Part shown: piece after piece, positions 13,489 through 60,781 of the stretch
Position numbering within the stretch: the first letter of the stretch is position 1
How the letters are laid out: every line of letters begins with the position of its first letter
Source: Blastocatellia bacterium
Lineage (GTDB): Bacteria; Acidobacteriota; Blastocatellia; HR10
Length of the DNA stretch: 64,000 nucleotides
Reading direction: 5' to 3'
NCBI GenBank assembly: GCA_025055075.1
Contig: JANWYV010000001.1
Span: forward strand, 1 to 64,000
Program-made: the position numbers and the translations under genes
Notes under the pieces: generated by a model
Database searches by the model: none
Seen by the model: only the letters and a program-made list of their open reading frames with translations
Told to the model about the DNA's origin: nothing

Positions 13489-13537
13489 GGCTTTTTCGCT
13501 CCCCCGCAGAATTATAGGGGGGAGTGCGCGAAAAGCC
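13489..13537. repeat. inverted repeat spanning the tdh promoter -10
   Basis: GGCTTTT at 13489-13495 pairs with AAAAGCC at 13531-13537. Inner arms are C-rich on the left and G-rich on the right (CTCCCCC / GGGGGGAG), with the tdh -10 hexamer in the intervening part. It could be an operator or a cruciform-forming element. Confidence 0.5.
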
Positions 13538-13539
13538 AA
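13511..13539 (-). promoter_or_regulatory. sigma-70-type promoter of tdh-kbl
   Basis: The reverse strand reads TTGGCT (13539-13534), 17 bases, then TATAAT (13516-13511). The -10 is perfect and the -35 matches four of six. The transcript would start near 13504, giving a leader of about 40 bases before tdh. Confidence 0.65.
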
Positions 13540-13623
13540 TGGGATCGCCGATCGGGATGCTCGCCAGCGATTTTCAGGCTATACTTGAGAGCTTCTTTCA
13601 ACGCATCAGGAGGACATGGCCGC

Positions 13624-15216
13624 GTGCTTCGAAGATGGTCGCGAACGGACGGGACGAGCCGGAAGGAACTCGCGCCGCGGGCGAGGGAAGAACCGACGCG
13701 CGCGTCGCGCGCTGAGGGGCCGAGCGTCGAACGAGGACATTCGCTCGGCTGGCGCGGATGGTGGCGCGCGGTGGAAATTCTGACGGTCGCCCTCTTCTTC
13801 GCCGCCTATCTCTATCTGGACGCCCTCGCGGCGTGTGATCCACACAAGGTGCGCGGTCGCTTTCGGCGCGTGTTGCGATGGCTCGCGCGCCGCTTCCTCG
13901 CGCAAGGGGTCCTTCAGCGCGAGGAACGCTTACGCGCGCAGGCCGTGTGGCTGCGGAATCGGCTGGTGAAGCTCGGCCCCACGTTCATTAAGATCGGCCA
14001 AGCCTTAGCCACCCGCGCCGATCTTCTGCCGCTGCCGTACATCCAGGAGCTGACGCGGTTGCAAGACGAGGTTCCGCCATTCCCCCAAGCGGAGGCGGCG
14101 CGCATCTTGGAGGAAGAACTCGGCGCCCCCGCCGAGCGACTCTTCGCCTTCATCAATTGGGAACCGATCGCTTCCGCCAGTCTCGGTCAGGTCTACTACG
14201 GACGGCTGCCTTCAGGCGAGGAGGTCGCCATCAAAGTCCAACGTCCCCGCTTGCGCGAGGCGATCCACGTGGACCTGATGATCCTTCGACGCATCGCCCG
14301 CTTCCTCAAGCGATACCCTCAGCTCTTTCGCGGCGTGGATTGGACGGGCGTGTTGGATGAGTTCGCCGTCACCATCTTCGAGGAGATGAATTATCGCCAG
14401 GAAGCGCGGCATGCCGAGCAATTCCGCGAGAATTTCCGACGATGGCGGGACGTCTACGTCCCGAAGATTTACTGGGCCTATACGACCGAGCGCGTCCTCA
14501 CCATGGAGTACATTCACGGCGTGAAGGTGACCGACGTGGAGGAACTGCGGCGACGCGGATTCTCTCCCGCGCACCTCCATCGGCTCCTAGCGCGCACGTA
14601 TCTCAAGCAATTCCTCGAGGACGGATTCTTTCACGCCGATCCGCATCCGGGGAATTTGCGCGTCATGCCGGATGGACGCTTGGCCTTCTTCGATTTCGGC
14701 ATGACGGGGCGCATTGATGCGCGGCTGCAAAGCTTGATGATCGAGGCCTTCTTCCACATCGTGAACCGCGACGTCTCGGGCTTGGTGGAGGATCTCATCA
14801 AACTGGGCTTTCTCGATCCGAAGGTGGACCCGCGCCTCATTCGTCCCCTGGTCGAGGAGTTATTCCGCGAGTACCTCGGGCTGAAGCTGAGCGAGATCAA
14901 ATTCAAGGAGCTGACCTACGACCTGGCCGAGGTGGTCTACGAATATCCCTTCCGCATCCCCACGCGCTTCACGTATATGATCCGCGCTCTGATGGAGCTG
15001 GAGGGGATCGGGATTGCCATTGATCCGGAATTCAACTTCATTGACGTGGCCCGCCCCTTCGCGCGGGAGTACTTCTTCAAGCGCGAGGCCCGCCAGCTTC
15101 GCGCGGCGCTATTGAACCGTCTGCTTCGAGGGGAGAACGGTGCGCTTCGCTTCGACCAACTCTGGCGTTTCGCCAAACTCGCCGTGCGCGTCTATCTCGA
15201 TAAGCTGAAAGTTTGA
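13624..15216 (+). CDS. ubiB: UbiB/ABC1 family atypical kinase
   Basis: The open frame runs far upstream through the antisense of tdh. The real start is GTG at 13624, with AGGAGG 9 bases before it, giving 530 residues. N-terminal VEILTVALFFAAYLYLDAL is hydrophobic. Family-defining motifs follow: KxGQ-type KLGPTFIKIGQALATR, the alanine-rich loop SASLGQVYYG, VAIKVQRP (Lys), and the catalytic/metal HADPHPGNL and FFDFGMTGR. UbiB-like proteins support quinone biosynthesis; here menaquinone or ubiquinone is unknown. The typical C-terminal transmembrane pair is not obvious. Confidence 0.9.
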   Translation: MLRRWSRTDGTSRKELAPRAREEPTRASRAEGPSVERGHSLGWRGWWRAVEILTVALFFAAYLYLDALAACDPHKVRGRFRRVLRWLARRFLAQGVLQREERLRAQAVWLRNRLVKLGPTFIKIGQALATRADLLPLPYIQELTRLQDEVPPFPQAEAARILEEELGAPAERLFAFINWEPIASASLGQVYYGRLPSGEEVAIKVQRPRLREAIHVDLMILRRIARFLKRYPQLFRGVDWTGVLDEFAVTIFEEMNYRQEARHAEQFRENFRRWRDVYVPKIYWAYTTERVLTMEYIHGVKVTDVEELRRRGFSPAHLHRLLARTYLKQFLEDGFFHADPHPGNLRVMPDGRLAFFDFGMTGRIDARLQSLMIEAFFHIVNRDVSGLVEDLIKLGFLDPKVDPRLIRPLVEELFREYLGLKLSEIKFKELTYDLAEVVYEYPFRIPTRFTYMIRALMELEGIGIAIDPEFNFIDVARPFAREYFFKREARQLRAALLNRLLRGENGALRFDQLWRFAKLAVRVYLDKLKV

Positions 15217-43130: not shown

Positions 43131-43508
43131 TCACGCGTGCGAAGCGTTGGAGAAATTCACGACCGCCGCGTTCTTCCGGCGGACATCTAAGATGGCGAAT
43201 TCCCCTCCGCCGAGCACTTCGCCGCCGAGCGCCCCGCAGCGCGGGCATTCGCCGAGGGCTTCGTCGGAACGAAACGTATGATGGCAGAGGGTGCATCGAA
43301 AAGTCATTGGGACGATCTCCAACTCCAAGCGCGCGGCTTCGACCGGAGTCCCCAGCGTCAAGCGCTCGAAGGCGGCGCGAAAGCGTTCGGGTGCCGCACG
43401 CCCGATCCCTAGTCGCACGCGCACGCTCATGATCTTTCGATACGGATCGGTCGCGAACGCCTCCTCGAGGCGCTCCAGCAGGGCATGGATCAATGCGACT
43501 TCTCGCAT
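43131..43508 (-). CDS. HypA-like zinc-ribbon protein with altered nickel-binding N-terminus
   Basis: The start at 43508 has GAGGAG upstream and gives 125 residues. The zinc-binding CTLCHHTF and CPRCGALGGEVLGG pairs and the preceding RLELEIVPMTFRC segment match HypA/HybF, the nickel-insertion factor for [NiFe] hydrogenases. HypA normally begins Met-His, His2 being a nickel ligand; this protein begins MREVALIHALLE, so that ligand is absent. No hydrogenase is present in the window. It is the last gene of the ferredoxin-to-HypA unit. Confidence 0.8.
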   Translation of the reverse strand: MREVALIHALLERLEEAFATDPYRKIMSVRVRLGIGRAAPERFRAAFERLTLGTPVEAARLELEIVPMTFRCTLCHHTFRSDEALGECPRCGALGGEVLGGGEFAILDVRRKNAAVVNFSNASHA

Positions 43509-43543
43509 GGTCGTCTCCTCATCGCGCCTTACGACGGGCAAGA

Positions 43544-44110
43544 TCACGAGGCCTTCGGCGCGCTCGCCAGGCGCGCGATGGCTTCTCGCACGATGCGCCC
43601 GCAGGAGGCGCAGAAAGCGTTTGATTTCAAATCCACGTGCTCGATGGAATTCGAGAAGTGCATGACGCACTCGAAATCCGAACAGTGGACGAGACCGAAT
43701 GTATGGCCCAACTCGTGCAAGGCTTCCTTCTCGCACCGCTCGAAGAAGAGCCGACGGTCTTCCGGCAGCCCGTAAAACCGTTGATCGAGGCGATAGATTG
43801 AGAGCACGGCCGCCGTTCCGCCAAGCTGCGCCTCGCCAAAGACGAACGTGAGGATGGGGATGAACAAGTCCACATCCGTCACGCCGAGAACCTTCGCAGC
43901 CGGATTGCGGTGCCCGCGGATCAACTGCGCGAGCAGCTCCGTCGAATGGTACTGTTGCCGGAGGGGATGATAGGCCGCTTCCAGCTCGACGGGATGATTC
44001 CGAATGTGACAAGACACCGGGAGCGTCTCCGGCAGGACGAGCGCGAGGAAGTCGAGGACTTCCGCGTCCACGTTCCCAATCGGAACCAGTTCGATGAGCG
44101 CGCGCCCCAC
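43544..44110 (-). CDS. archaemetzincin-family zinc metalloprotease
   Basis: The zinc and cysteine motif is complete: HELGHTFGLVHCSDFECVMH gives HExxHxxGxxHC with the following Cys-x4-Cys-Met. The characteristic K-x3-FC-x2-C (LKSNAFCASCGR) comes later, defining archaemetzincins (M54). At 188 residues it is normal in size and has no signal peptide, so it is cytoplasmic. Substrates are unknown in this family. It lies 12 bases after the response regulator in the same operon. Confidence 0.92.
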   Translation of the reverse strand: MGRALIELVPIGNVDAEVLDFLALVLPETLPVSCHIRNHPVELEAAYHPLRQQYHSTELLAQLIRGHRNPAAKVLGVTDVDLFIPILTFVFGEAQLGGTAAVLSIYRLDQRFYGLPEDRRLFFERCEKEALHELGHTFGLVHCSDFECVMHFSNSIEHVDLKSNAFCASCGRIVREAIARLASAPKAS

Positions 44111-44122
44111 GGCCTCTCCTCA

Positions 44123-45480
<1,358 letters not shown>

Positions 45481-45484
<4 letters not shown>

Positions 45485-47181
45485 AGGGCGTTCCTCCCGC
45501 TCTGGCCGGCGCCGCTTGGGGCAGCCGTGGAAGAGAGATCGAAAGCGAGGTCAGCGCGTTCCTCCTCATGGGATGGCGGGGTGAGCGGCAAGTGAAGCGT
45601 GAAGGTCGTCCCCTGTCCGAGTGCCGATTGCACGTGGATCTCCCCGCCGTGTCGGTGGAGGATGCTGAGCACGACCGAAAGACCGAGGCCAAGGCTCCCC
45701 TCTTTCTCTTTGGTCGTGAAGAAGGGCTCGAAGATGTGCCGTTGCGTCTCCTCGTCCATTCCAACGCCGTTGTCGCGGATCGCGATTTCGACGCGCTGAG
45801 TCTCGGGGAGGAACCGCGAGCGGACCTCGAGCACCCCCTCTTCCGGCTGCATCGCTTCGCAGGCGTTGATCAAAAGGGCGACCAAGGCTTGTTGGATCTG
45901 TTGGCCATCGCAGACGATGGGGGGAAGGGAAGGATCGAGGTGTACGTTGGTCTGCAAGCTCATCAGTTCGATCTTGTGCTGGATCAAGCGCAGCGATTGA
46001 TGGATGAGCGCGTTGACGTCATGCGGTTGAAAACGCGCGCGCGAGGGGCGCACAAATTGCAAGAGGTTCTTCACGATCTCCCCGCAGCGCGCCGACTCAT
46101 TGGCGATCAACTCCAGATATTGGCGCGCGCTCGCAAGGTCCTCGGCCGAGAGCCCGTGATCCCGCATCTTCTTGAGCAAGAGTTTCGCCGTCGTGAGGAT
46201 GCCGGACAAGGGATTATTGATCTCATGCGCGACGATGGCCGCGAGCTTCCCGATGGAGGCCATGCGCTCGGCATGTAGCATTTGCTCATGCGCGCGCCGC
46301 AGCTCGGCCGTCTTCTGGGCCACGCGTTCCTCCAACGTGCGCGCCCAACTCAACACTTCCTCGTGAGCGCGCTTCAGCTCCTCAGTCATCGCGTTGAAAG
46401 AGGCCGCCAATTCCCCGAGCTCATCGCGCGAGGTGAGGGGGATTTTGTAGTCGAGGTCGCCAGCGGCGACACGTTCGGTCCCCTTCTTCAGATGCTTGAT
46501 CGGAACATGGATCATCGTCACGGTGACGGCCACGACGACGAGCGCGACGAAGAGGAGGCTTATCAAGAAGAGGCGAAGGAGTTGACGCTGGCCCTCCGCA
46601 ATGGCGGCGTCCACGGGAGCGAGCGAGAGCGTCACGTCCAGCACCCCGAGTACCGATTGCGCTGCTGTGTGCGCGTGGCACGGAGCGGTGTAGCACCCCG
46701 GCTCATTCTCGATAGGGTTGATGAGGCCCAAGATGCGCTCCCCGCGATCCCCCACGTACACGCGGACGCGATCCGGACGCTCCAATCGAGCGAGCGGCTG
46801 CTCCTGGGCATGGCAGGCGTAGCAGGCCTCGGCGCGCTTGTCCACGAACGTATTCATCTCGCGCGCATCAGTGGAGAAGCTGATGCGTCCCTCCTTGTCG
46901 AAGATGCGAATCTTGTGAATGCCGGGTTGCGCGCCGATGGTGAGGAGCGTGTGGTAGATCTCATCACGGTGGTTCTGCAGCATGCTGTAGCGCAGCCCTC
47001 GCTTGATGACATCGCTGGTGCGGTCGGCGCTCATGATGGTCATCTGCTCCAGATCGCGCTTGTGGAGCTGCAGGGTTTGGTATCCGAGAAGCGCGAAGAC
47101 GAGCGCCATGCTCGCGATGAGCCAGAGGGCCAACTTCACGCTCACGCTCGACATCCATCGGCGAACGCCGTCTTGCTTCAT
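45481..47181 (-). CDS. histidine kinase with periplasmic heme-binding motifs
   Basis: The start at 47181 has AGGAGGAGGG upstream; 566 residues. TM1 is about 17-35. The periplasmic domain carries CYACH (120-124) and CYTAPCH (163-169, CX4CH), suggesting one or two covalently bound hemes. TM2 is about 203-224, then HAMP (PIKHLKKGTERVAAGDLDY). HisKA phospho-His is H319 in IVAHEINNP. The ATPase has LLINACEAM, DNGVGMDEE and EGSLGLGLSV. It should sense a periplasmic redox state or gas ligand and phosphorylate the paired NtrC-type regulator. Confidence 0.93.
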
Positions 47182-47189
47182 CCCTCCTC

Positions 47190-48782
47190 CTAGGGCCGAT
47201 GACATGCCGTGCAGTCCTCCTTCACGCTGAAAGAGGTACGCCCGTCGTGGCATCGTCCACAGTGTCGTTCATCGTGCAGATCGCGAGCGGGGGATGGCGC
47301 TCCCCTCCCAGATGCCTTCAAGATGCGGAACGGCTCATGATGGCAGACCGTGCAATTGGGTCGCTCCCAATTGAGGTGCGAGGCATGTCGGAAGGTGACC
47401 GGTCCGGGACTCGCTTCTCCTTGGGGGAACGTGATGTCCGGAGGGACTTCAAACCGCTCCAGACCTTCGGCGATCTCGGGCTCACTCTCCTCGCCGGAGG
47501 TCGCGGGAGCGAACATCCGCTCGCGATATTGCAGACCGCTGTAGGCCGACCCCATGGCGCTGACGAAGAAGATCCCGCCGAGGATCAGCACAAGAGGCGT
47601 CGTTCCGATCCACGGTCGTCGCAGGACGGCCACGGCCGGAGGCTCCACCAAGGTGGGCGCCGGAAGGCGTTCCATCTCCGGGAAGACGGGCAGATACTTC
47701 ACCGCCAGCCCAAAGAACGCGAAGCCCAAGGCGACGATCATCAACGTCACCGAGAGCTCCGTCCAACTCGGGAAGTACGAGACGCCGGAGGAGGCCTCCA
47801 TCCCCGTGATGCTCACATTCAGCCGATTCATGATGAAGCCCAAGACCACCAGGACGGCAGAGACGAAGAGCCCGAAATGATCCATCCGGATGCGGCGAAT
47901 GCTGAGCAAGAGGATGGGACCAATCACGCCCATCAGCGTCTCCGCCAAGAACATTCGCCCTTCGTAGGTCGGTTCCAGGGCGCGCGCGAGCACATCCCGT
48001 CTGGCCAGGTCTTGGACTCTCAGGACCAGGTATACGGCCAGTGCGACGACGGTCACTTTGCCCAGATCGGCGAGCAGATCAATCTCCAGCCGTTTCCGAA
48101 ACGCGCGGTAGCTCAAAAAGGACTCGAAGATGGTCATCGCGCATCCGAGCGCGATCGCCGAAATGAAGAAGAAGACGGGCAGGAGCGGCGAGTACCAGAG
48201 CGGATGCAGCTTCTCCGGGACGATCAGATAGAGCGATCCGAGCGAGGATTGGTGGAGCGTCGAGAGGATGACGCCGAGGATGACCAATGGCACCGTCAGC
48301 GCGTGAAGGATCCGCAGTGGCCTCTCAAGCCTCAGGCGCTCGAACACCATCGGGCTGAACTCCAGCGCGAGCACCGTCGTGTAGAGCATGACGCACCACG
48401 CAACTTCGAACATCACCGAGTGCGGGTTCCACATGACCAACGGGTGCCAGATACGATAGGGGCGTCCCAAGTCGAAGAGTAAAGCCACGATGACGAGCAC
48501 GTATCCGAGGAACGCGGTGAGAATCGTGGGACGAATGATCGGGCGAAACCGCTCGATGTTGAAGATGTAGACGACCGCGCTGAGGGTGAATCCGCCGGCT
48601 GCCAGGGCTACTCCGCAGAGGACGTCGAACCCAATCCACAATCCCCAGGGGAAGGCGTCGCTCAGAGCTGTGCTTGCCCCCAGGCCGCGGGTGAACCGAA
48701 TGACCGTGCTGTAGAGGCCAGCACCCAGGATGACGATAAACACGAGCTGCCAAAAACTCGGTCGGCGGAAGCTCCATCGCAT
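47190..48782 (-). CDS. NrfD/HybB-type quinol-interacting membrane protein fused to a c7-like triheme tail
   Basis: About ten transmembrane segments match the NrfD/PsrC/HybB family (WGLWIGFDVLCGVALAAGGF, IERFRPIIRPTILTAFLGY, WHPLVMWNPHSVMFEVAWC). The tail from about residue 460 has three CxxCH: CTVCH (477-481), CGRCH (508-512) and CTACH (524-528), with a His-rich lead FRHASHLNW as in cytochrome c7. It likely couples the quinone pool to periplasmic hemes. The ATG at 48782 is preferred over GTG at 48797. Confidence 0.9.
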   Translation of the reverse strand: MRWSFRRPSFWQLVFIVILGAGLYSTVIRFTRGLGASTALSDAFPWGLWIGFDVLCGVALAAGGFTLSAVVYIFNIERFRPIIRPTILTAFLGYVLVIVALLFDLGRPYRIWHPLVMWNPHSVMFEVAWCVMLYTTVLALEFSPMVFERLRLERPLRILHALTVPLVILGVILSTLHQSSLGSLYLIVPEKLHPLWYSPLLPVFFFISAIALGCAMTIFESFLSYRAFRKRLEIDLLADLGKVTVVALAVYLVLRVQDLARRDVLARALEPTYEGRMFLAETLMGVIGPILLLSIRRIRMDHFGLFVSAVLVVLGFIMNRLNVSITGMEASSGVSYFPSWTELSVTLMIVALGFAFFGLAVKYLPVFPEMERLPAPTLVEPPAVAVLRRPWIGTTPLVLILGGIFFVSAMGSAYSGLQYRERMFAPATSGEESEPEIAEGLERFEVPPDITFPQGEASPGPVTFRHASHLNWERPNCTVCHHEPFRILKASGRGAPSPARDLHDERHCGRCHDGRTSFSVKEDCTACHRP

Positions 48783-48836
48783 AGCCTTCTTCCTCACCAG
48801 ATCGCTTGCCCCACGCGCTCGACGCGCGCGGGCAGA

Positions 48837-49667
48837 TCACTCCTCTTCCTGTGAGGGACCGACAAATCCGGACGCCGAGGGATCGCGCGAGACTTCCTCA
48901 GAGGCGCCGCGCCTCTTCCGCTCTTCGCGTTCTCGGATCTGGACCTCTCGACGCCGATTCGTGATCCACCAAATGCCGCCCAGCAGAACGCTGCCGACGA
49001 CGACGAAATCAGGGATCTTCTGTAAGACCTGCCACGTCAGCAGCGGCAGCGGTTCCGATAGCAGATCGGTGCGATAGCCGAGGCGCTCGAAGGGGACGTC
49101 CGAAAGAAGCAACACCGATGTGCCGCCGACTTCCTCCAATCCGTAGATCCTCGGCACGTATTTCTGGGGGCGGGCGCGGATCCGCGCGCGAGCTTCCTCG
49201 ATCAACGCCTGGCGGTCACCGAATTTCGTCGCTCCCGTCGGACAAACTTCGGCGCATGCCGTGGGGCGCCCGGCCGCGAGGCGATCGGCACAAAGGTCGC
49301 ACTTTCGAACGCGGGGCAGGACCTTCCCCCATTCGTACTTCGGAATATCAAAGGGACACGCCAGCATGCAATACCGACACCCGATACAGCGCGCCTCATG
49401 ATAGATGACCGGGCCGGTGGCCGTCTTCTCCAACGCGCCAACTGGACAGACGGAGACACATGTGGGGACTTCGCAATGCATGCAGAGTTGGCGAATGAAT
49501 CGCCCCCCACGCTTCTTCACGACCGTATAGGTTCGATCCGAGAGCTGATCGTCTAGAAAGTGCGCCACCGTTCGCGGGAGCCGGTTTCGCTCCTTACACG
49601 CTTCGTAGCAGGCGCCGCACCCAATGCACAGGGTCACGTCAAAGAGAAGACCTTTTTTGCCGCCCAT
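48837..49667 (-). CDS. four-cluster ferredoxin, HybA/NrfC-like
   Basis: Start at 49667 with GGGAGGG upstream; 276 residues. Sixteen cysteines form four [4Fe-4S] motifs: CIGCGACYEACKERN, CMHCEVPTCVSVCP, CIGCRYCMLACPFD, and CDLCADRLAAGRPTACAEVCP. A C-terminal hydrophobic segment (IPDFVVVGSVLLGGIWWIT) anchors it. No Tat signal is seen at the chosen start, so the clusters may face the cytoplasm, unlike HybA; this is uncertain. It pairs with the membrane subunit 54 bases downstream. Confidence 0.9.
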   Translation of the reverse strand: MGGKKGLLFDVTLCIGCGACYEACKERNRLPRTVAHFLDDQLSDRTYTVVKKRGGRFIRQLCMHCEVPTCVSVCPVGALEKTATGPVIYHEARCIGCRYCMLACPFDIPKYEWGKVLPRVRKCDLCADRLAAGRPTACAEVCPTGATKFGDRQALIEEARARIRARPQKYVPRIYGLEEVGGTSVLLLSDVPFERLGYRTDLLSEPLPLLTWQVLQKIPDFVVVGSVLLGGIWWITNRRREVQIREREERKRRGASEEVSRDPSASGFVGPSQEEE

Positions 49668-49690
49668 ACGCGCCCTCCCTTCTAGAAGGA

Positions 49691-49706
49691 TGCAAGTTTC
49701 ATGCCG
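49691..49706 (-). promoter_or_regulatory. sigma-54 promoter of the ferredoxin-to-HypA operon
   Basis: The reverse strand reads CGGCATGAAACTTGCA: GG at -24 and GC at -12 are correctly spaced, with mismatches to consensus only at positions 1 and 6. The start near 49680 leaves about 13 leader bases containing the ribosome site, a tight and sensible arrangement. Confidence 0.75.
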
Positions 49707-49922
49707 CGGATGGAGTGCGAGGGGTTCCCCGGGGCTCACTTCCGGAAGCTTTCATTTCAAGGACTTGCAGGGAATGGTCGCTCCCTTCTCTTCTCCCGAG
49801 GGAGCGGGGGTGGGGCAAATCCCCCATCTGGAGCCGTTCCACTGATGTCTGAGGCACGAGCCCATATGCCACTGGCTCCGGGATAAGGAGCGGCTGGCGC
49901 GCGCTTCCTTGCGGATGCCAGA

Positions 49923-49945: not shown

Positions 49946-50644
49946 TTATTCTACCGACGGGCTCCGCAGGAACGTCCGCGTGAATTCCGCCCAGCCAACT
50001 TCATCCAGCGTCTCCAGGAGACCTTCCGCCCACTGTCCACCGTCCTGCAGGACATGCCCGAGAGCCGGTTGCAGCATCGGACGCATGGTCAAGAACTCCT
50101 TGAGCCGTTCGATTTCCGAGCGGAGCCATGCCCGCGCTTCTTCCGCGACGAACAGATGGCGCAGATGCGCTGCCAGGTTCATCGGCTTCAGCGCGCACAC
50201 CCATCCCTCTTCATACGGGTCCATCCGCCCCGTCTCGGGAAGGCGCGCGAGGTTCTCGTTGATGGCGCTCACGACACCAGTGATCGGTGCGCGGAAGACG
50301 GCTCGTCGGCCATTTTGCAGGACGACGAACAGCGGATCACCGCGCCGAACGACGGAGCCGACTTTCGGCAGCTCCACCGCGTCCACGCGACCGATCGCTC
50401 GACGCACGAACTCGTCCATGCCGATCAGCGTCCGTCCGTTCGGTTCCAGGCGAACCCACGTGTGTCCTTCGTCCAGGAAGAGGCCAGCGGGGACCGAGAC
50501 CGTTTCCAACGCGAGCGCCGGGAAGATCTCAGGACGCGGCGTCACTCGCCTCAGAGCTCGTCTCTGTCGAGCTTCAGCCCATTGGACGAGAGAATCCACA
50601 AGGATGAAACCGATAATCGTGAGAATGACGAAGAACGCGACCAT
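49946..50644 (-). CDS. membrane-anchored GcvH-like protein lacking the lipoyl lysine
   Basis: A 232-residue protein. N-terminal segment VAFFVILTIIGFILVDSLV is a membrane anchor. Residues ~60-155 resemble the glycine-cleavage H fold (DEGHTWVRLEPNGRTLIGMD, AIGRVDAVELPKVGSVV, APITGVVSAINENL), but the VESVKA-type lipoyl lysine position reads VVLQNGRRAVF without lysine. The C-terminal region shares an LQDGG motif with the upstream paralog. It is therefore a pseudo-lipoyl scaffold or carrier of unknown role. It lies 3 bases after the paralog in the same operon. Confidence 0.85.
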   Translation of the reverse strand: MVAFFVILTIIGFILVDSLVQWAEARQRRALRRVTPRPEIFPALALETVSVPAGLFLDEGHTWVRLEPNGRTLIGMDEFVRRAIGRVDAVELPKVGSVVRRGDPLFVVLQNGRRAVFRAPITGVVSAINENLARLPETGRMDPYEEGWVCALKPMNLAAHLRHLFVAEEARAWLRSEIERLKEFLTMRPMLQPALGHVLQDGGQWAEGLLETLDEVGWAEFTRTFLRSPSVE

Positions 50645-50647
50645 AGG

Positions 50648-51664
50648 TCACCTCCTGTGTCGAGACTTCCTCTCGGGCGCGCTTTTTGAGCGCCCGGCTT
50701 GTGGATGTAAGAATCGCGCGATCACCTGCGCCCACCCCGTGGGGCCGAGCTGTTCGATGAGCGCTTCCCTCGCGGGAGGGGCGAGGAGATCGCGCTCGGA
50801 AGGTGAAACGGGAACGCCCCCATCTTGGAGCGTGCGGCCGGCGAGGGCTTCTGGGGGCGTTCCCATGGTGCACAAAGCCGCGTGAATCTCTTGGTGTAGC
50901 CTGGCGACCTCCTGCTCATACCAAGCGAACGCTTGCTCCCCGTAGAGCAAGTGTCTCAATCCCTCCTGCAAGCGTTCCGGTTGAAGGATCAGCATCCATC
51001 CCTCTCCGTAGGGATCGTGATTGATAAGGGAGGGATACCGCTTGAGTTTCTCGTTAAGCTGACGGACCACCCCCGTCATGGGAGCTGGCACGGCGATCTC
51101 CCCCGCCTGGTGCACCAACGTGCCGCACGGATGTCCGGCGATCACCCGTGCGCCGACCTCGGAGAGCTTCACTTGATAAATGCGTCCGAGAAGCTTCTGC
51201 CCGAAATCATCCAAGCCAATCCGCACGTTCCCTCGCCGCTCGATGCGTGCCCATAGATGGGCCGGATGGTAGAAGAGCGCTTCTTTCATGTGAAATCCCT
51301 CGCGGACGAAGGTGAGATCACGACCCGCGCTCTGCTCATGGAGAGGGTCTCGCTGCTCTTTGCAAAGCGGGCATCCGGCGAGCCCATGATCCTCAACCCG
51401 ATCGTACACGATTCGTTCCGCGGGGACTCGTCGTGCGATCCTCTCAGCCACGGCTCCTGCCGTCTGTTCTCGAAAAGCGCGATCGAAGGGGCACTGTTCG
51501 CATTCGTAATCTCGATCGCAGAGCTTGTAATCCACAATCCCCGCCAGCATCCACACGCATTTGAGCAAAGCCGAATCATATTCGCCTTCGAAAACCACGG
51601 GGGAAGCAGCGCCTGTGGCTCCTGCCCATCGCTTTCGCATCCACTTGTTCGCTTCTGGCTTCAT
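50648..51664 (-). CDS. GcvH-like protein with N-terminal cysteine cluster, no lipoyl lysine
   Basis: Started at MKPEANKWMRKRW (51664), with GGGAGGG upstream; 338 residues. An N-terminal cysteine set (CVWMLAGIVDYKLCDRDYEC then CPFDRA; later CPLC) could bind zinc or Fe-S. The middle is H-protein-like (HLWARIERRGNVRIGLDDF, KLLGRIYQVKLSEVGARV, PAPMTGVVRQLNEKL), with no lysine where lipoate would attach. The end shares LQDGG and GWAQVIARFL with its downstream paralog. Its sigma-54 promoter ties it to the local redox regulon. Confidence 0.85.
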   Translation of the reverse strand: MKPEANKWMRKRWAGATGAASPVVFEGEYDSALLKCVWMLAGIVDYKLCDRDYECEQCPFDRAFREQTAGAVAERIARRVPAERIVYDRVEDHGLAGCPLCKEQRDPLHEQSAGRDLTFVREGFHMKEALFYHPAHLWARIERRGNVRIGLDDFGQKLLGRIYQVKLSEVGARVIAGHPCGTLVHQAGEIAVPAPMTGVVRQLNEKLKRYPSLINHDPYGEGWMLILQPERLQEGLRHLLYGEQAFAWYEQEVARLHQEIHAALCTMGTPPEALAGRTLQDGGVPVSPSERDLLAPPAREALIEQLGPTGWAQVIARFLHPQAGRSKSAPERKSRHRR

Positions 51665-51692: not shown

Positions 51693-51708
51693 TGCAATCA
51701 ACGTGCCC
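51693..51708 (-). promoter_or_regulatory. sigma-54 promoter of the GcvH-like pair
   Basis: The reverse strand reads GGGCACGTTGATTGCA, matching TGGCACG-N4-TTGCW at all but the first position. Transcript start near 51682, about 18 bases before the start codon. Confidence 0.82.
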
Positions 51709-51800: not shown

Positions 51801-51819
51801 GCGTTGAATTTTTCAACGC
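51801..51819. promoter_or_regulatory. putative enhancer site 1 (perfect 19-bp dyad)
   Basis: GCGTTGAA-TTT-TTCAACGC is a perfect inverted repeat with core GTTGAA-N3-TTCAAC. Its centre is about 128 bases upstream of the leftward sigma-54 start and 175 upstream of the rightward one. Confidence 0.75.
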
Positions 51820-51869
51820 CACACGGAGGATAGATGTTGGAAGTCATGGCGCATCGCGCGCTTAGCGAT

Positions 51870-51884
51870 GTTGAGGAGTTCAAC
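51870..51884. promoter_or_regulatory. putative enhancer site 2
   Basis: GTTGAG-GAG-TTCAAC matches the core of site 1 with one difference. Its centre is 21 bp (two helical turns) from site 3, suiting cooperative binding on one DNA face. Confidence 0.7.
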
Positions 51885-51890
51885 GGAACA

Positions 51891-51905
51891 GTTGCGCTTT
51901 TCAAC
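51891..51905. promoter_or_regulatory. putative enhancer site 3
   Basis: GTTGCG-CTT-TTCAAC keeps the right arm and the GTTG of the left arm. Its centre lies about 87 bases upstream of the predicted split-Soret transcript start. Confidence 0.65.
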
Positions 51906-51958
51906 AGGCAGCTGAGCCGTCCGCGCGCTAACTCTAGAGGAATCAAAGGTGCCTGTCT

Positions 51959-51974
51959 CGGCACGCGGCTTGCT
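51959..51974 (+). promoter_or_regulatory. sigma-54 promoter of the split-Soret cytochrome gene
   Basis: CGGCACGCGGCTTGCT matches TGGCACG-N4-TTGCW except at position 1. Transcript start near 51985, about 35 bases before the ATG. Confidence 0.82.
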
Positions 51975-52019: not shown

Positions 52020-52826
52020 ATGAATTCAAGGAAACTCACGCGAAAGGAATTCCTGACGTTGACGACCAAATGCGCCGCCTGTGCGGCGGTAGGCGTGGCT
52101 GGAGTGAGTCTCGTCGGCCGCGAGGGAGAAGCGCGGATGGAGCTTCCTCCCTGGCCGTGGCCCTACAAGAAGATTGATCCCGAATACGCCCGGAAGCTCG
52201 GGCACGAGGGATACTGGGACAAAGGTTACGGATGCGCGTATGGTGCGTTTCGCGCGATCATTCTCCCGTTGCGCGAAACCGTCGGGTACCCATACACGCT
52301 CATTCCGCCCGAGATGATGATTTGGGGGCATGGTGGCGTCGTCGGATGGGGCGGAACTTGCGGAGCGCTCCTGGGCGCTGCGGCGGCCATCAACCTCGTG
52401 TGCGATAAGCCGACGGCCGATCGGCTCATCCATGAATTGCAGGGCTGGTACACGCAAGTGCCTCTGCCGACGGACATCAGCAATGAGTACGCCCAGACCG
52501 GGAAGTTCTTCGTCCAGAGGTACACGCGGCCGCTGCCGCAGAACGTCGCGGGATCTCCCTTGTGCCACATCTCGGTGACCAAGTGGTGCCGAGATTCGGG
52601 ATTCCGGGCCACGTCGCTCGAGCGGAGGGAGCGATGCGGCCGGCTGACAGGGGATGTCGCGGCTTACACGGCTGAGCTTCTGAATCAATGGGCCGACGGC
52701 AAGTTCCAAGGCATCTACGTTCCGCCAGAGTCTATCGCGACGTGCCTCAGATGCCATGGCGATAAGGGCATGGACGATGTGAGAGCCAGGATGAATTGCG
52801 TGCAGTGCCACACGCCGCATCCGTGA
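52020..52826 (+). CDS. split-Soret-type cytochrome c, exported
   Basis: AGGAAGGAGGGGG precedes the ATG. The N-terminus LTRKEFLTLTTKCAACAAVG looks like a Tat-type signal with an RK variant. The body matches C_GCAxxG_C_C/split-Soret proteins: GYGCAYGAFRAI (C72), MMIWGHGGVVGWGGTCGALLGAAA (C114), and C128. Two C-terminal CxxCH sites follow, CLRCH (242-246) and CVQCH (260-264). Split-Soret cytochromes are di-heme dimers of unknown function in anaerobes. A strong hairpin follows the stop. Confidence 0.85.
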   Translation: MNSRKLTRKEFLTLTTKCAACAAVGVAGVSLVGREGEARMELPPWPWPYKKIDPEYARKLGHEGYWDKGYGCAYGAFRAIILPLRETVGYPYTLIPPEMMIWGHGGVVGWGGTCGALLGAAAAINLVCDKPTADRLIHELQGWYTQVPLPTDISNEYAQTGKFFVQRYTRPLPQNVAGSPLCHISVTKWCRDSGFRATSLERRERCGRLTGDVAAYTAELLNQWADGKFQGIYVPPESIATCLRCHGDKGMDDVRARMNCVQCHTPHP

Positions 52827-54236: not shown

Positions 54237-56105
54237 TTATTGGGGATCTCGAGGGGGCGGAGCGCTTCCGTTCAACAGTGCTTCATCGAAGACCTCAAGG
54301 TGCATCTCCTCAAGGCCTCGCAGCACGAGCTGTCGCACCTCGATGCCGCGCGAGGCCGTGAGCGCCTTTTGAGCGAGGTCGCGCACGCGCGCTAACTCGC
54401 ACTGTCGGATGAGATCGCGGATGAGGGGAATGGCGCGCGGGCGCATGCTCAGGATGCGCACGCCTAGGCCGAGCAGCACGAGCGCATGAAGCGGATGCGC
54501 GGCCATCTCCCCGCAGACTTCGAGATCGAGGCCCGCGCGTTCGGCCGCGCGCATCACATGATGCACAGCGCGCAGCACGGCCGGATGAAGCGGATCATAG
54601 AGATGTGCGACGCGATCGTTGTCGCGATCCACCGCCAAGATGTATTGGATGAGGTCGTTCGTCCCCAGACTCAGGAAATCGGCCGCCGTCGCGAGTTCTT
54701 CCACAAGCCAGACGGCCGCTGGCGTTTCGATCATCACGCCCAATGGGAGGCGATCGGGGACTTCAAACCCTTCGGCGCGCAGCTCGCGACACACGGCATC
54801 GAGCACATGGCGCGCTTCGTGGACTTCCTCCACCCTCGTGATGAGGGGGAGGACGATGCGAAGATTCCCGAATGCCGCGGCCCGCACAATGGCGCGCAGT
54901 TGTGTCCTCAGGACTTGCGGTCTATTGAGAGAGAAGCGAATGGCGCGAAGCCCAAGTGCGGGATTGCGTTCATGGATCCACGGCTCCCGATCGTCCATCC
55001 CCGTCCGCACGAGAGGCTCATCGCGAAGCGCTCGATGGCTCCCGAGCGCCGCCATCTGATTTTCGTCCCAATCCACTGTGCGAATGACAGCACCCTCCGG
55101 TCCGGCCGCCTCGGCGACCTGGCGATACGCTCGCCATTGCATCTCTTCTGAAGGCAGCTCCGGAGCCGCTTGCAGGAAGAGGAACTCTGTGCGCAACAAT
55201 CCAATGCCACACGCGCCAAAATGCCGAGCGTCCTCCAACTCCGAGAGCCGTTCGATGTTGGCGCGGACAATGATGGACACCCCGTCGCTTGTCGTCGTCG
55301 GCAGCGGTGCGCGTTCGCGCAGCAGGAGCCATCGGCGTTCGCGCTCCTTCTGCTGCTCCTCGTATCGGCGAATGACCTCTTGTGCCGGGTGCACGAAGAC
55401 GAGCCCTTGGGTCCCATCCACAAGAAGGAGCGCTTGGTTTTCGATGAGGGCGAGCGCGCCGTGAATGCCGGAGACAGCCGGAATGCCCAGACCGCGCGCG
55501 AGAATGGCCGCGTGTGAAGTCCATCCTCCCGTGCCGATGACCAGCCCAGCGACGCGCTGCGGATCGAGTTCTCCAAGGAGGCTCGGCGGAAGTGTCTCCC
55601 CCACGAGGACTGCGCCTTCCGGGAAGGCGTACGCATCGCGCTCTCCGACGAGCACGGTGAGCAACCGATGGGCCACGTCCTCGATGTCGCTGCCGCGCTC
55701 GCGCAAATAATCGTCCTTGATCTCCGCATAGATGGCCAGGATGCGATCGGTGACCAACTTCACGGCCCATTCCGCATTGATCGCGTTTGTGCGGATGAGC
55801 ATCTCGATCTCTCCCAGGATCCCCGCATCTTCCAGCATCAATCGCTGCGCGTCCAGGATGTAGGCGTGTTCTCTCCCCAGAGCGTGTTCCATGCGCTGCC
55901 GCAGCGCCTGGAGCTGTTCGCGAGCGACGGCCACGGCCGTTTGGAATCGCGCCACTTCCGCATCAACCTCATGAGGGGCGAGCGATCGTCGGAAGACCAA
56001 GCGCCCGCGCCGTGGCAAATGCACCGCTGGACCCCATCCCACTCCCGGCGAAACGCCCAATCCACGAAGGACGATCTCCGGACGCGTCGCGCGATTCGCC
56101 GTCAC
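54237..56105 (-). CDS. ptsI: PTS enzyme I (phosphoenolpyruvate-protein phosphotransferase)
   Basis: A 622-residue EI. The phosphohistidine is His198 in GTGGWTSHAAIL. The PEP-binding domain has the RTEFLFL segment, MIETPAAVWL, LGTNDLIQYILAVDRDN, and the catalytic Cys in VCGEMAAHP. It phosphorylates HPr at the expense of PEP. It overlaps the HPr gene by 4 bases. Some segments (TVDWDENQMAALG) diverge from sugar-PTS EI, in line with a regulatory system. Confidence 0.95.
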   Translation of the reverse strand: MTANRATRPEIVLRGLGVSPGVGWGPAVHLPRRGRLVFRRSLAPHEVDAEVARFQTAVAVAREQLQALRQRMEHALGREHAYILDAQRLMLEDAGILGEIEMLIRTNAINAEWAVKLVTDRILAIYAEIKDDYLRERGSDIEDVAHRLLTVLVGERDAYAFPEGAVLVGETLPPSLLGELDPQRVAGLVIGTGGWTSHAAILARGLGIPAVSGIHGALALIENQALLLVDGTQGLVFVHPAQEVIRRYEEQQKERERRWLLLRERAPLPTTTSDGVSIIVRANIERLSELEDARHFGACGIGLLRTEFLFLQAAPELPSEEMQWRAYRQVAEAAGPEGAVIRTVDWDENQMAALGSHRALRDEPLVRTGMDDREPWIHERNPALGLRAIRFSLNRPQVLRTQLRAIVRAAAFGNLRIVLPLITRVEEVHEARHVLDAVCRELRAEGFEVPDRLPLGVMIETPAAVWLVEELATAADFLSLGTNDLIQYILAVDRDNDRVAHLYDPLHPAVLRAVHHVMRAAERAGLDLEVCGEMAAHPLHALVLLGLGVRILSMRPRAIPLIRDLIRQCELARVRDLAQKALTASRGIEVRQLVLRGLEEMHLEVFDEALLNGSAPPPRDPQ

Positions 56106-56389
56106 GATGTCGCTCCTCCCTCCTCGCCGAATTTCGATTCGATTAACCGACAGATGGCCTCGACCGCTTCCTCCTCGTCGTCTCCCGACGCGATGACGTC
56201 CAAATACGTCCCCGCGGAAGCCGCCAAGAGCAAGACGCCGAGAATGCTCTTGGCATCCACGGTCTGTCCATTATCGCACCGCGCGAGCGCGATCGTGCTC
56301 TGGAAACGATTGGCGACGTGCACGAGCTTCGCCGCCGCCCGCGCGTGTAGCCCCAGACGATTGGTCACTTGCACGGTTCGCCGTTGCAT
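56102..56389 (-). CDS. ptsH: phosphocarrier protein HPr
   Basis: A 95-residue HPr. His15 (RLGLHARAAAKLV) is the EI phosphorylation site, and Ser48 (VDAKSILGVLLL) matches the site phosphorylated by HPr kinase. Both sites with a local hprK support dual control. It lies 6 bases after the EIIA gene and overlaps ptsI. Confidence 0.95.
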   Translation of the reverse strand: MQRRTVQVTNRLGLHARAAAKLVHVANRFQSTIALARCDNGQTVDAKSILGVLLLAASAGTYLDVIASGDDEEEAVEAICRLIESKFGEEGGATS

Positions 56390-56395
56390 CCTCGG

Positions 56396-56809
56396 CTAAC
56401 GTTTGGTGGGGGTGAGAATCTCGCTGGCCAGGTAGATGTTCTTCTGCCCTTGCTCCTTGACCTTTCGCGCTACCGTGAGCAGATCGTCGTTCGGATCCTG
56501 ATCGGCGAGCTTCAGGATCATCGGCAGATTGACGCCAGTGACGATCTCCACCGGTTCGCTCCCCAAGAATGTAGCGGCGAGGTTGGTCGGCGTCCCGCCG
56601 AACATATCCGTCAGCAAGAGCACGCCCCGCCCGCTATTGACGCGAGCGATCGCTTGGCGAATCGTCTCGCGCGCCACCTCGACGTCATCGTGCCAACCGA
56701 TGGAGACGGCCGTAATGTGGCTGATTTCGCCGATGATCATCTCGGCCGCGTTCACCAACTCCGTGGCCAATTGCCCATGCGTGATGACGACGCCTCCAAC
56801 GAGTCCCAT
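56396..56809 (-). CDS. mannose-family PTS EIIA component
   Basis: A 137-residue EIIA-Man type protein with phospho-site His11 (GVVITHGQLATEL) and TDMFGGTPTNLAATFL. No EIIB, EIIC or EIID is nearby, so it probably ends a regulatory phosphorylation chain rather than transporting sugar. GAGGAAAGGGG lies upstream of the ATG. Confidence 0.92.
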   Translation of the reverse strand: MGLVGGVVITHGQLATELVNAAEMIIGEISHITAVSIGWHDDVEVARETIRQAIARVNSGRGVLLLTDMFGGTPTNLAATFLGSEPVEIVTGVNLPMILKLADQDPNDDLLTVARKVKEQGQKNIYLASEILTPTKR

Positions 56810-56944
56810 GGATGCCCCCTTTCCTCACAGAGAGATCACCGAAGCAATCCCTCCACGCGCCCGGCGCGCTTCATCTCTTCCGCGCGCCCTCCTAATTGTA
56901 CCTCACGGCGTGCGCGCCCGTCCTCGACGAGGCAGGCGACGCGC

Positions 56945-57820
56945 TCACGGTTTGTCCACATCGCGGTGCGCGACGCGAATCTTATATCCGTCGCGCCGCA
57001 GCGTGCGGGCTAGCTCCTCGACGATCATCACCGAACGATGGCGTCCCCCCGTACACCCGATCCCGATCGTCACATAACTGCGGCCCTCGCGTTGATAGCG
57101 CGGCAGGAGAAAGCGGAGGAGATTCTCCAGATGGGCGATCGTCTCCGCGGTGTCCGGCTGCGCATGCATGAAGGCGACGACTTCGGGATCTTGCCCCGTT
57201 CGCTCGCGCAACTCGGGCACAAAGTGTGGGTTCGGCAGAAAGCGTACGTCGAAGAGTAAATCCAGTCCGGGCGGAACGCCATGCTTGAATCCGAAGCTCA
57301 CGAGCGTGACCGTCATCTCCAACAGGGCGTCGGTCGTGCCGAAGCGCTCGATCACATAGCGGCGCAGCGTGTGGACCGTATGCTCGGACGTATCAATGAT
57401 CAGATCCGCCCGGGCGCGAATCTCCGCCAGCAACTCTCGCTCTCGCGCGATGGCCGCCGAGAGATCCGTCTCCGCATCGGCCAGCGGATGCGGGCGGCGC
57501 GTCTCCGAGAAACGGCGCAGCAAGACGTCGGGGCTCGCCTCGAAGAAGACGATCTTCACGTTCGTCCCCTGCCGCCGCAGCTCATCGTACAGGCGAGGGA
57601 AGTCCGGCAAGAACTGTCGCTCGCGGATGTCAATGACGATGACGGCCCGTTTGAGCGTCTCCAGAGAGCGCTCGCACAACTCCACGAAGGGGGGGATGAG
57701 ATGAATCGGCAGGTTATCCACGCAGAAGTATCCGAGGTCCTCGAAGGCCTTGACCGCCGAGGTCTTCCCCGAGCCGCTCAAGCCCGTGAGGATGAGAATT
57801 TGCGGAGAAGGAGAGGCCAT
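56945..57820 (-). CDS. rapZ: RNase adapter / nucleotide-binding protein RapZ
   Basis: A 291-residue YvcJ/RapZ protein: Walker A GLSGSGKTSAVKAFEDLGY, CVDNLPIHLIP, and C-terminal VTIGIGCTGGRHRSV. In enterobacteria RapZ controls glmS sRNA decay; in other phyla the role is less known. The hprK-rapZ-HPr association suggests a link to PTS signalling. It lies 12 bases after hprK. Confidence 0.95.
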   Translation of the reverse strand: MASPSPQILILTGLSGSGKTSAVKAFEDLGYFCVDNLPIHLIPPFVELCERSLETLKRAVIVIDIRERQFLPDFPRLYDELRRQGTNVKIVFFEASPDVLLRRFSETRRPHPLADAETDLSAAIARERELLAEIRARADLIIDTSEHTVHTLRRYVIERFGTTDALLEMTVTLVSFGFKHGVPPGLDLLFDVRFLPNPHFVPELRERTGQDPEVVAFMHAQPDTAETIAHLENLLRFLLPRYQREGRSYVTIGIGCTGGRHRSVMIVEELARTLRRDGYKIRVAHRDVDKP

Positions 57821-57832
57821 AGCGGCATTTGC

Positions 57833-58795
57833 TCACCGCGAGTCCTGAGCCTCGCCCGTGACCAGCGCATCGTGCGCGCGCACGAACCGACGCATGGCAT
57901 CTATGCCACGGCGTCTCAACAGGTGATTCCGCACGGCTACTTCCACCAGCGTCGGGAGATTGCGCCAGGACGTGATGGGAAGGCGAATCAGAGGGATCGG
58001 GACGTCAAGCACACGAAGCGTCTCCTCCTGCAATCCCAGAGGATCATACTCGCGTTGCGGATCCCAGCGCTCGAAGGCGATGGCCAGCTCCAACGGCGCT
58101 TCTTCGGCGAGTGCAGCGACGCCGAACAATTCCCGGATGTCGAGGATGCCCAGCCCGCGAATCTCCATGTGCCCCTGCGCGCGTTCCGGCGCTCGCCCGA
58201 TCACCCGATCCGAACCGAGCGCGCGCACCTCGACGACGTCATCGGAGACGAGCCGATGCCCGCGCTGAATGAGATCGAGCGCACATTCGCTCTTGCCCAA
58301 TCCGGATTCACCGAGCAAGAGCACGCCGACGCCGAAGACCTCTACCATGACGCCATGAATCCACTGGCGCGGAGCGAGCGTCCGTTGCAAGAACTCCGTG
58401 AGCTTCAGGATCGCCATCGAACTCAGGAGCGAAGAGACGAGCACCGGGACGCGTCGCCGTTCGGCGGCGTCCAGAAATTCCGGCGGGGGAGTGAGCCCCT
58501 TCGTCACGAGCACGCACGTGATCTCTCCCCAAGGGAGACGCTCGACGGCCTGCCGACGATCCGAGGGGGAGAGATGTTGCAGGAAGGTCACTTCGCTCTG
58601 TCCCAGAATTTGAACGCGCCCCGGGTGGACGTAGTGTGGGAATCCGGCTAACGCCAGCCCGAGCTTTTGAATCCGCGGCGAGCGAATCACGTTCGCCGCG
58701 CCCGCAGCGCCGGCGATCACTCGAAGCTCCAGTTCCGGAGGCGCTTGGGCCAATAGTTCGGCGACGGTGATCTCCGGGACGAACGAGGTGGTCAT
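57833..58795 (-). CDS. hprK: HPr kinase/phosphorylase
   Basis: A 320-residue HPrK: N-terminal regulatory domain (ITVAELLAQAPPELEL), Walker A GESGLGKSECALDLIQRGHR, the HPrK signature LEIRGLGI-like HMEIRGLGILDIRELFG, and a downstream R-x5-E segment. It phosphorylates or dephosphorylates HPr Ser48 in response to ATP, PPi or phosphate. It is 7 bases after hpf. Confidence 0.95.
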   Translation of the reverse strand: MTTSFVPEITVAELLAQAPPELELRVIAGAAGAANVIRSPRIQKLGLALAGFPHYVHPGRVQILGQSEVTFLQHLSPSDRRQAVERLPWGEITCVLVTKGLTPPPEFLDAAERRRVPVLVSSLLSSMAILKLTEFLQRTLAPRQWIHGVMVEVFGVGVLLLGESGLGKSECALDLIQRGHRLVSDDVVEVRALGSDRVIGRAPERAQGHMEIRGLGILDIRELFGVAALAEEAPLELAIAFERWDPQREYDPLGLQEETLRVLDVPIPLIRLPITSWRNLPTLVEVAVRNHLLRRRGIDAMRRFVRAHDALVTGEAQDSR

Positions 58796-58802
58796 CGAAG
58801 GC

Positions 58803-59318
58803 TCACGGCTCGATCAACCCGAGGTGACCATCGCTCCGCTTGTAGAGGACAGCCACGCGCTCGGTCTCCGAGTTTCGAAAGACGAGGAAGTGATCGCTCG
58901 ATTTCAGCAGCAGCTCGGCAGCCTCATCCGGGGTCAGGGGCTTCACCGAGTATCGCGGCGTGCGGATGATGCGCACCTCCGGCGCCGGCGACTCGACGGG
59001 CAGCGTCTTCACGAGCTTGCGCGTCGCCCGCCGACGCGCCGCGAATTTCTCCTTCTGCTTGAGGACTTGTCGAAGGAGACGGTCGATGGCTCCGGTGACG
59101 GAGCTATAGAGGTCGTCCGTCTCGGCCGTCCCCGTGAACTGATGATCTCGCCAGGTGACGAGAATCTCCGCCAGGAAACGGTGCTTCTGCGCACTCACAA
59201 TGACGTGCGCTTTGGCTGCATCGTCGAGGACGCGGTCCAACTTCTCCAAAGCTCGTCGCAAACGCTTCTCGATCGTGGGCGTGAGCGTCACATTTCGCGT
59301 CGTGAGTTCAACGTTCAT
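58803..59318 (-). CDS. hpf: ribosome hibernation promoting factor, long form
   Basis: A 171-residue protein. The N-terminal S30AE domain starts MNVELTTRNVTLTPTIEKRL. The C-terminal dimerisation domain has RTPRYSVKPLTPDEAAELLL and AVLYKRSDGHLGLIEP, so it is the long type that forms 100S ribosomes alone. It overlaps rpoN by ATGA, the classic rpoN-hpf arrangement. Confidence 0.95.
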   Translation of the reverse strand: MNVELTTRNVTLTPTIEKRLRRALEKLDRVLDDAAKAHVIVSAQKHRFLAEILVTWRDHQFTGTAETDDLYSSVTGAIDRLLRQVLKQKEKFAARRRATRKLVKTLPVESPAPEVRIIRTPRYSVKPLTPDEAAELLLKSSDHFLVFRNSETERVAVLYKRSDGHLGLIEP

Positions 59319-60781
59319 CTTCCCCTCCCTGCGGCAAGCAGCAAGCGATCTCGCGAGCTGGGAATGCCCAACTGCTTCCGATACTTCGTCACCGTGCGGC
59401 GAGAGAGTCGGATACCCTCTCGTTCCAAGAGACGCACGAGATCCTCATCGGTCAGCGGGGCTCGCGGATCCTCTTGCTCGATGAGCTTTTGAAGGCGGAG
59501 CTTGAGAACGCGCGTCGAAATCTGCTCACCGTTCTCCTTCCTCACGCCTTCGGTGAAGAAGCGGCGCAGCTCGATCAGGCCCTGTGGGGTATCAATGTAC
59601 TTGTTGCTCACGATGCGGCTGACGGTGGAGAGCGAGAGGCCCAATTCGGCCGCGATGTCCTTCAACAGCATCGGCTTCAAATGCTCCGGGCCGTAGTCGA
59701 GGAAATCCCGTTGCCGCCGGACGATCGCTTCACATACGCGGTAGATCGCGCGCCGCCGATGCTCGATGTTCTTCAAGAGTTCGACCGCCGAGCGCAAGCG
59801 CTCGCGCACGAAATCGCGCGTCTCCTTGGGAAGGCGTTCGTCCCTGAGCAGCCGCCGATAATAGGCGTTGATCCGAAGCTGCGGTAGCCCCTCCTCGTTA
59901 AAGAGGATCACGTACCGATCGTCCACCTTTACGATGCTCGCCTCAGGCGCGATGTAGGTCGGAGGAGCAGCCCCCAAGTTTCGTCCCGGGCGCGGGTCTA
60001 ACTGTCGGATGACCTCCAGCTCCTCGCGGAGCGTCTCCAGAGGGAGATTGAGCCGCTGAGCCAGCTCCGGCAACCGATGCGGTTGCAGCTCCCACAGATG
60101 CTCTCGCACGAGGCGGGCGGCCAACCGATCCTCCCATCCCCGCGCGCGGAGCTGCAGCAGCAAGCATTCCCGCAGGTCACGGGCACCGATCCCTGGAGGG
60201 TCGAGGCTTTGCACAAGAGCGAGCGCGCGCTCGACGACCTCGTCGGACCATCCTCCTAAGGCCCGGATCTCTTCGAGCGTCGCCTCCAGATAGCCGTCGC
60301 TGTTGAGGCATCCGATGATCGCTTCCGCAGCCTCGCGCACGTCCGCATCCTTCGGAGCGATCAGACGGAGTTGTTCCAGCAAGACCTCATAAAGGGAGGG
60401 ACGACTCGGCGTCAGCTTCTCCAGTAGCGAGGCCTCATCTTCCGGAGGGGGCTCCGCCCACGCCGTCTGCGGGACCGGGTCGAGATAGTTCTGGAAGAAA
60501 TCCTCGAAATCCACCTCCTCGAAGACGTCCTTCGGTTTCGATGGGGTTTCCTCCGATTCCGACATCGCCGCGCGGGACTCGCGCTCCGTATTGAGGAGCA
60601 CCTTCTCGGCCGAAGGAACGGGTTCGATCACTTCCTCCAAAACCGGATTCTCCCGCAGCTCCTGCCGCACCAGGGCGAGCAACTCCAGTTTCGTCATGGC
60701 CAGCAGATCAATGCGTTGCTTGAGCTGCGGCGTCAGCGCCAGACGCTGCGTCAATCCCTGTGTGATCTTCACCGATGGCAT
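59315..60781 (-). CDS. rpoN: RNA polymerase sigma-54 factor
   Basis: A 488-residue RpoN. Region I is Gln/Leu-rich (LTQRLALTPQLKQRIDLLAM). Region II is acidic. The core-binding region has GIGARDLRECLLLQLRARGW. The HTH and C-terminal RpoN box follow (SRRTVTKYRKQLGIPSS). It reads -24/-12 promoters and depends on NtrC-type ATPases; one such activator and four candidate promoters lie in this window. It is 3 bases after lptB. Confidence 0.97.
   Translation of the reverse strand: MPSVKITQGLTQRLALTPQLKQRIDLLAMTKLELLALVRQELRENPVLEEVIEPVPSAEKVLLNTERESRAAMSESEETPSKPKDVFEEVDFEDFFQNYLDPVPQTAWAEPPPEDEASLLEKLTPSRPSLYEVLLEQLRLIAPKDADVREAAEAIIGCLNSDGYLEATLEEIRALGGWSDEVVERALALVQSLDPPGIGARDLRECLLLQLRARGWEDRLAARLVREHLWELQPHRLPELAQRLNLPLETLREELEVIRQLDPRPGRNLGAAPPTYIAPEASIVKVDDRYVILFNEEGLPQLRINAYYRRLLRDERLPKETRDFVRERLRSAVELLKNIEHRRRAIYRVCEAIVRRQRDFLDYGPEHLKPMLLKDIAAELGLSLSTVSRIVSNKYIDTPQGLIELRRFFTEGVRKENGEQISTRVLKLRLQKLIEQEDPRAPLTDEDLVRLLEREGIRLSRRTVTKYRKQLGIPSSRDRLLLAAGRGR

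Follow-up and report, generated by a model that had tools for sequence, protein, structure and literature searches.

The window analysed (64,000 nucleotides, positions 1 to 64,000 of contig JANWYV010000001.1 in the Blastocatellia bacterium assembly GCA_025055075.1, HR10 lineage) contains on its minus strand an operon, hereafter the left operon, encoding in this order: GcvH-like protein 1 (50648..51664; Pfam GCV_H 1.1e-22 and alignment); GcvH-like protein 2 (49946..50644; Pfam GCV_H 1.5e-17 and alignment); an HmcB-like 4Fe-4S protein (48837..49739); an HmcC/NrfD-like membrane protein fused to a cytochrome c7 domain (47190..48797; domain matches); a sensor histidine kinase (45481..47253, start codon uncertain) with CxxCH and CX4CH in its sensor region; and an NtrC-family response regulator (44123..45484) with a receiver domain, an AAA+ domain and an HTH_8 domain (domain matches), whose GAFTGA was read in the translation. 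The divergent gene encodes a split-Soret-cytochrome-c-like protein (52020..52826, plus strand; domain matches). HmcB and HmcC scored under the NCBIfam equivalog cut-offs for the Hmc sulfate-respiration complex (252.8 of 420 bits and 351.6 of 550 bits, respectively), and are therefore named '-like'. The lipoyl lysine of glycine cleavage H proteins was absent from both GcvH-like proteins, in the window copies and in the relatives at other loci, in an alignment where the lipoyl-lysine column was set by eye against the known GcvH motif; this suggests that these proteins probably carry no lipoate. The next genes after the regulator encode a peptidase M54 (archaemetzincin) and a HypA-like protein (43131-44110), and an M54-like frame adjoins the regulator also in L159, a locus from another phylum.

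The 355-base divergent region contains two predicted sigma-54 -24/-12 elements, both conserved in the genus: GGGCACGTTGATTGCA (51693..51708, minus strand, GG/GC at 51707/51695, predicted start ~51682) for the left operon, and CGGCACGCGGCTTGCT (51959..51974, plus strand, GG/GC at 51960/51973, predicted start ~51985) for the split-Soret cytochrome gene. Between them lie three dyads (no strand assigned): D1, GTTGAATTTTTCAAC (51803..51817), a perfect GTTGAA-N3-TTCAAC within a 19-bp palindrome (51801-51819); D2, GTTGAGGAGTTCAAC (51870..51884), with one mismatch; and D3, GTTGCGCTTTTCAAC (51891..51905), with two. The centres of D2 and D3 are separated by 21 bp, and the dyad centres are 87-216 bp upstream of the predicted starts. 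The sequence-only reading had described one perfect 19-bp dyad and two close matches, at this spacing and these distances, between divergent sigma-54 promoters, and had taken them as candidate enhancer sites of a local NtrC-type activator; the dyads were confirmed at 51803, 51870 and 51891, spacing and distances agree with the coordinates, and both -24/-12 elements were found. Two non-dyad blocks of the region also look conserved in the genus: GCGCATCGCGCGCTTAG (51849-51868; 12 of 20 positions invariant) and TAACTCTAG..GAATCAA (51929-51947). The window also encodes sigma-54 itself (rpoN, 59318-60781), as part of a stretch 2 kb from the cytochrome gene (54237-60781) with rpoN and then S30AE, HPr kinase, RapZ-like, EIIA-man and PTS enzyme I-like genes.

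The genome-wide motif search proposed with the sequence-only reading found a single perfect GTTGAA-N3-TTCAAC in the 3.0-Mb genome, namely D1. Sites with one mismatch number five: D2 and four within open reading frames, which have no sigma-54 element nearby in a proper setting. Across the whole window the pattern with up to three mismatches was not enriched (18 matches, 13.2 expected); the signal is the cluster of dyads. When the 355-base region was shuffled 20,000 times with its dinucleotides preserved, no shuffle contained three sites with at most two mismatches, a single shuffle contained two and none contained a perfect site, and a motif-free version of this test gave 0 of 3,000; the motif-free triple-dyad test also flagged tiles at 13500-13955.

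Each of the four same-genus relatives (Bacterium HR10, Bacterium HR08, an uncultured Blastocatellia bacterium and an Acidobacteriota MAG) retains the dyad triplet, at a D1-D2 spacing of 67 bp and a D2-D3 spacing of 21 or 22 bp. All three copies are perfect in Bacterium HR10; D2 and D3 are imperfect in the HR10-lineage window, which we count against an enhancer function. The half-sites are invariant in the genus at 30 of 36 positions (83%), the promoters at 19 of 33 and the rest of the intergenic DNA at 68 of 271 (25%; Fisher p 1.5e-11 for half-sites versus this remainder). Outside the genus, G005, G006 and G008 show a 78 bp spacing in place of the 67 bp of the genus, and G116 shows 67 bp. No split-Soret gene was found at the dyad loci of these four genomes, so the triplet exists without the divergent target; the split-Soret homologs outside the genus (L050-L061) had no dyad locus of the D1-D3 kind. 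In G116, frames encoding multiheme cytochromes precede the GcvH operon on the same strand (L082:12795-16554).

The tandem-dyad pattern (GTTG-N7-CAAC, 5-8 bases, GTTG-N7-CAAC) matched eight of 396 Acidobacteriota genomes, against none for the reversed pattern used as control. Seven of these matches are at the GcvH-like/HmcBC operon: G000 and G001 are the studied locus itself; G416, G469, G197 and G305 match near the operon or its kinase-regulator part; and in G215 the match directly precedes a truncated GcvH-like frame that lies at the end of its contig. The eighth (G018) falls inside a coding frame. The pattern showed no enrichment in the Desulfobacterota group (2 of 345 genomes, control 4) or in the Nitrospirota group (1 of 198, control 0). 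G567, which shares the phylum group of G503 and of a Desulfonatronospira genome (Desulfobacterota group), has dyads at L159:7721 and 7744 and a perfect sigma-54 element at 7850, at a locus encoding HmcB, HmcC, both GcvH-like proteins, and then a 60% identical regulator and the kinase; given the lack of enrichment across its group, we claim it as a single case outside Acidobacteriota.

A matrix derived from 18 sites in the genus and in G008 was scored against 32 upstream regions, with 500 shuffles each. The best site reached p <= 0.006 in 24 regions and 0.018-0.024 in three, and was not significant in five (p values per region, uncorrected for the number of regions). The sample is biased: six regions hold training sites, five were chosen via the dyad pattern (the kinase regions of G416 and G469, and G197, G305 and G215), and the bounds of several others were drawn after the dyad positions were visible. 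Among the 21 regions found by protein homology and not used in the matrix, 13 reached p <= 0.006, with the same caveat on bounds. The operon loci of G238, G218 and G221 had no significant site, which also counts against an enhancer function. Loss of the dyads from loci where the promoters persist had been named beforehand as the outcome that would speak against the motif; instead, dyads and promoter persist together in the four same-genus relatives, in further families and in one genome from a second phylum; the exceptions are a few distant loci of the operon with no significant dyad. By sequence comparison, sites of the D1-D3 type accompany the same operon across the Acidobacteriota phylum, and at least one genome outside it has them too.

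At the dyad loci, the orthologs of the regulator share 52-95% identity with it. Their unusual recognition helix, IDRVTLYN, is conserved, and most end in IDRVTLYN[KR] (divergent helices: DRVTLYSK in L138 and DRTTLYKK in L147). In G006, a 77% ortholog and its kinase are on a different contig from the GcvH genes, whose locus keeps weak dyads; this, too, is counted against the enhancer function. The only regulator matches in G007, G009, G010, G011 and G018 (46-51% over the full length) are read as paralogs. The dyads might instead serve another of the genome's sigma-54 activators, working in trans, and the 13 HTH_8 matches in this genome do provide other candidates. We consider this improbable, as the dyads seen in other families and in a further phylum are linked to the local regulator only, and its conserved recognition helix is distinct from those of other HTH_8 proteins in the genome (e.g. 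IDRRTLYRK or ISRVTLWRK).

Binding of a repressor or an architectural protein, in place of an activator, appears more improbable still: palindromes of this size fit many dimeric DNA-binding proteins, and there are further conserved blocks between the promoters, but the dyads stand at a distance from the predicted starts and not over the promoters, sigma-54 promoters require an activator, and the sites track the NtrC-type regulator. Chance, a dispersed repeat or RNA hairpins, for which the unenriched mismatch pattern and three weak terminator-like stems in the region might be invoked, were rejected as scarcely credible, being strongly disfavoured by the conservation data, the shuffle test and the uniqueness of the perfect site in the genome, and hairpins also by the position of the dyads outside both predicted transcripts.

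From the sequence comparisons it is highly probable that D1-D3 serve the NtrC-type response regulator of the left operon as enhancer (upstream activating) sites: dyad conservation and linkage support what the sequence-only reading had proposed. This view is based on three conserved dyads flanked by two -24/-12 elements that are conserved as well; on their linkage and co-conservation with a regulator whose recognition helix is conserved; on the heme-c motifs of the kinase and the sigma-54 encoded in the same genome; and on the shuffle test, the unique perfect site, the genus triplets, the tandem pattern, the matrix scan and G567. As in known upstream activating sequences, there is more than one palindromic site upstream of -24/-12, the activator is linked or co-conserved (unlinked in G006), and the sites are conserved with the promoter in the genus and in most families.

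As to the signal, CxxCH and CX4CH are invariant in the sensor region of 11 of 11 aligned kinase orthologs. The sensor profile finds 3b42, a Geobacter chemotaxis sensor (E 8.5e-5, profile positions 139-182 only), and the Pfam matches were PF21563 in eight members and sCache_3_2 in five, the window protein itself matching weakly; DUF3365 (Tll0287), the sCache_heme family, was not among the sensor's matches. Signalling proteins with heme-bearing Cache domains (fused sCache_heme sensors) show NO-sensor properties (PMC12889525). The kinase resembles the c-type-heme sensor domains (GSU0935/GSU0582; sCache_heme) in its CxxCH and its 3b42 profile match, and differs from them in carrying a second motif, CX4CH; we infer that it may bind heme or sense NO. 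In the proposed mechanism, the kinase would sense a periplasmic redox signal or a gas such as NO via c-type heme and phosphorylate the regulator; dimers of the phosphorylated regulator would occupy D1-D3, the three dyads helping to assemble the active oligomer; and DNA looping would bring it into contact with sigma-54 polymerase at both promoters. The GcvH/HmcBC/kinase/regulator operon would thereby be switched on (positive autoregulation), as would, in this genus, the split-Soret cytochrome gene.

In many families, two of the three best-scoring sites per region are separated by 20-23 bp and the third lies at 76-80 bp, this third site, picked as third best, often being a weak match; its offset is 67 bp in the genus and G116 and 109-111 bp in G416 and G469. 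A helical phase test on ten hand-chosen spacings gave a Rayleigh p near 0.005-0.007. Because triplet choice and phase test were made after seeing the data, we treat the geometry as a hypothesis. With limited confidence, and at somewhat less than an even chance, we suggest that a fixed three-dimer enhancer (a same-face pair at 20-23 bp and a third dimer ~n+0.4 helical turns off) may be an ancient hallmark of a single lineage of heme-sensing regulators, one such enhancer having been co-opted in the genus for two divergent promoters.

These results provide a candidate binding motif and a probable regulon for an uncharacterised Acidobacteriota regulator lineage that is tied to an electron-transfer operon and a kinase carrying c-type-heme motifs. 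Signal, regulator and targets thereby become testable one by one, and the conserved spacing offers a natural series for how enhancer geometry guides the assembly of sigma-54 activators.

The kind of system is already known; the motif GTTGAA-N3-TTCAAC, the conserved pair-plus-one layout and the regulon appear undescribed in the literature library searched. The core of the NorR site differs from GTTGAA-N3-TTCAAC, and NorR senses through a GAF domain and does not belong to the response regulators, in contrast to the regulator here, which has a receiver domain. According to PMC2941729 (citing Tucker et al. 2010), the NorR enhancer of Escherichia coli norVW has three sites upstream of the promoter, needed for activation and serving as the oligomer scaffold; the likeness is in three sites for one sigma-54 activator, a layout here predicted from sequence. 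In Desulfovibrio, the sigma-54 activator DVU3142 adjoins the Ohc electron-transport operon, which it is predicted to control and which has a conserved binding site (PMC4641369). That operon (OhcBAC) differs from the GcvH/HmcBC operon; the likeness between the two systems is one of arrangement, with an activator beside an electron-transport operon that has a conserved site.
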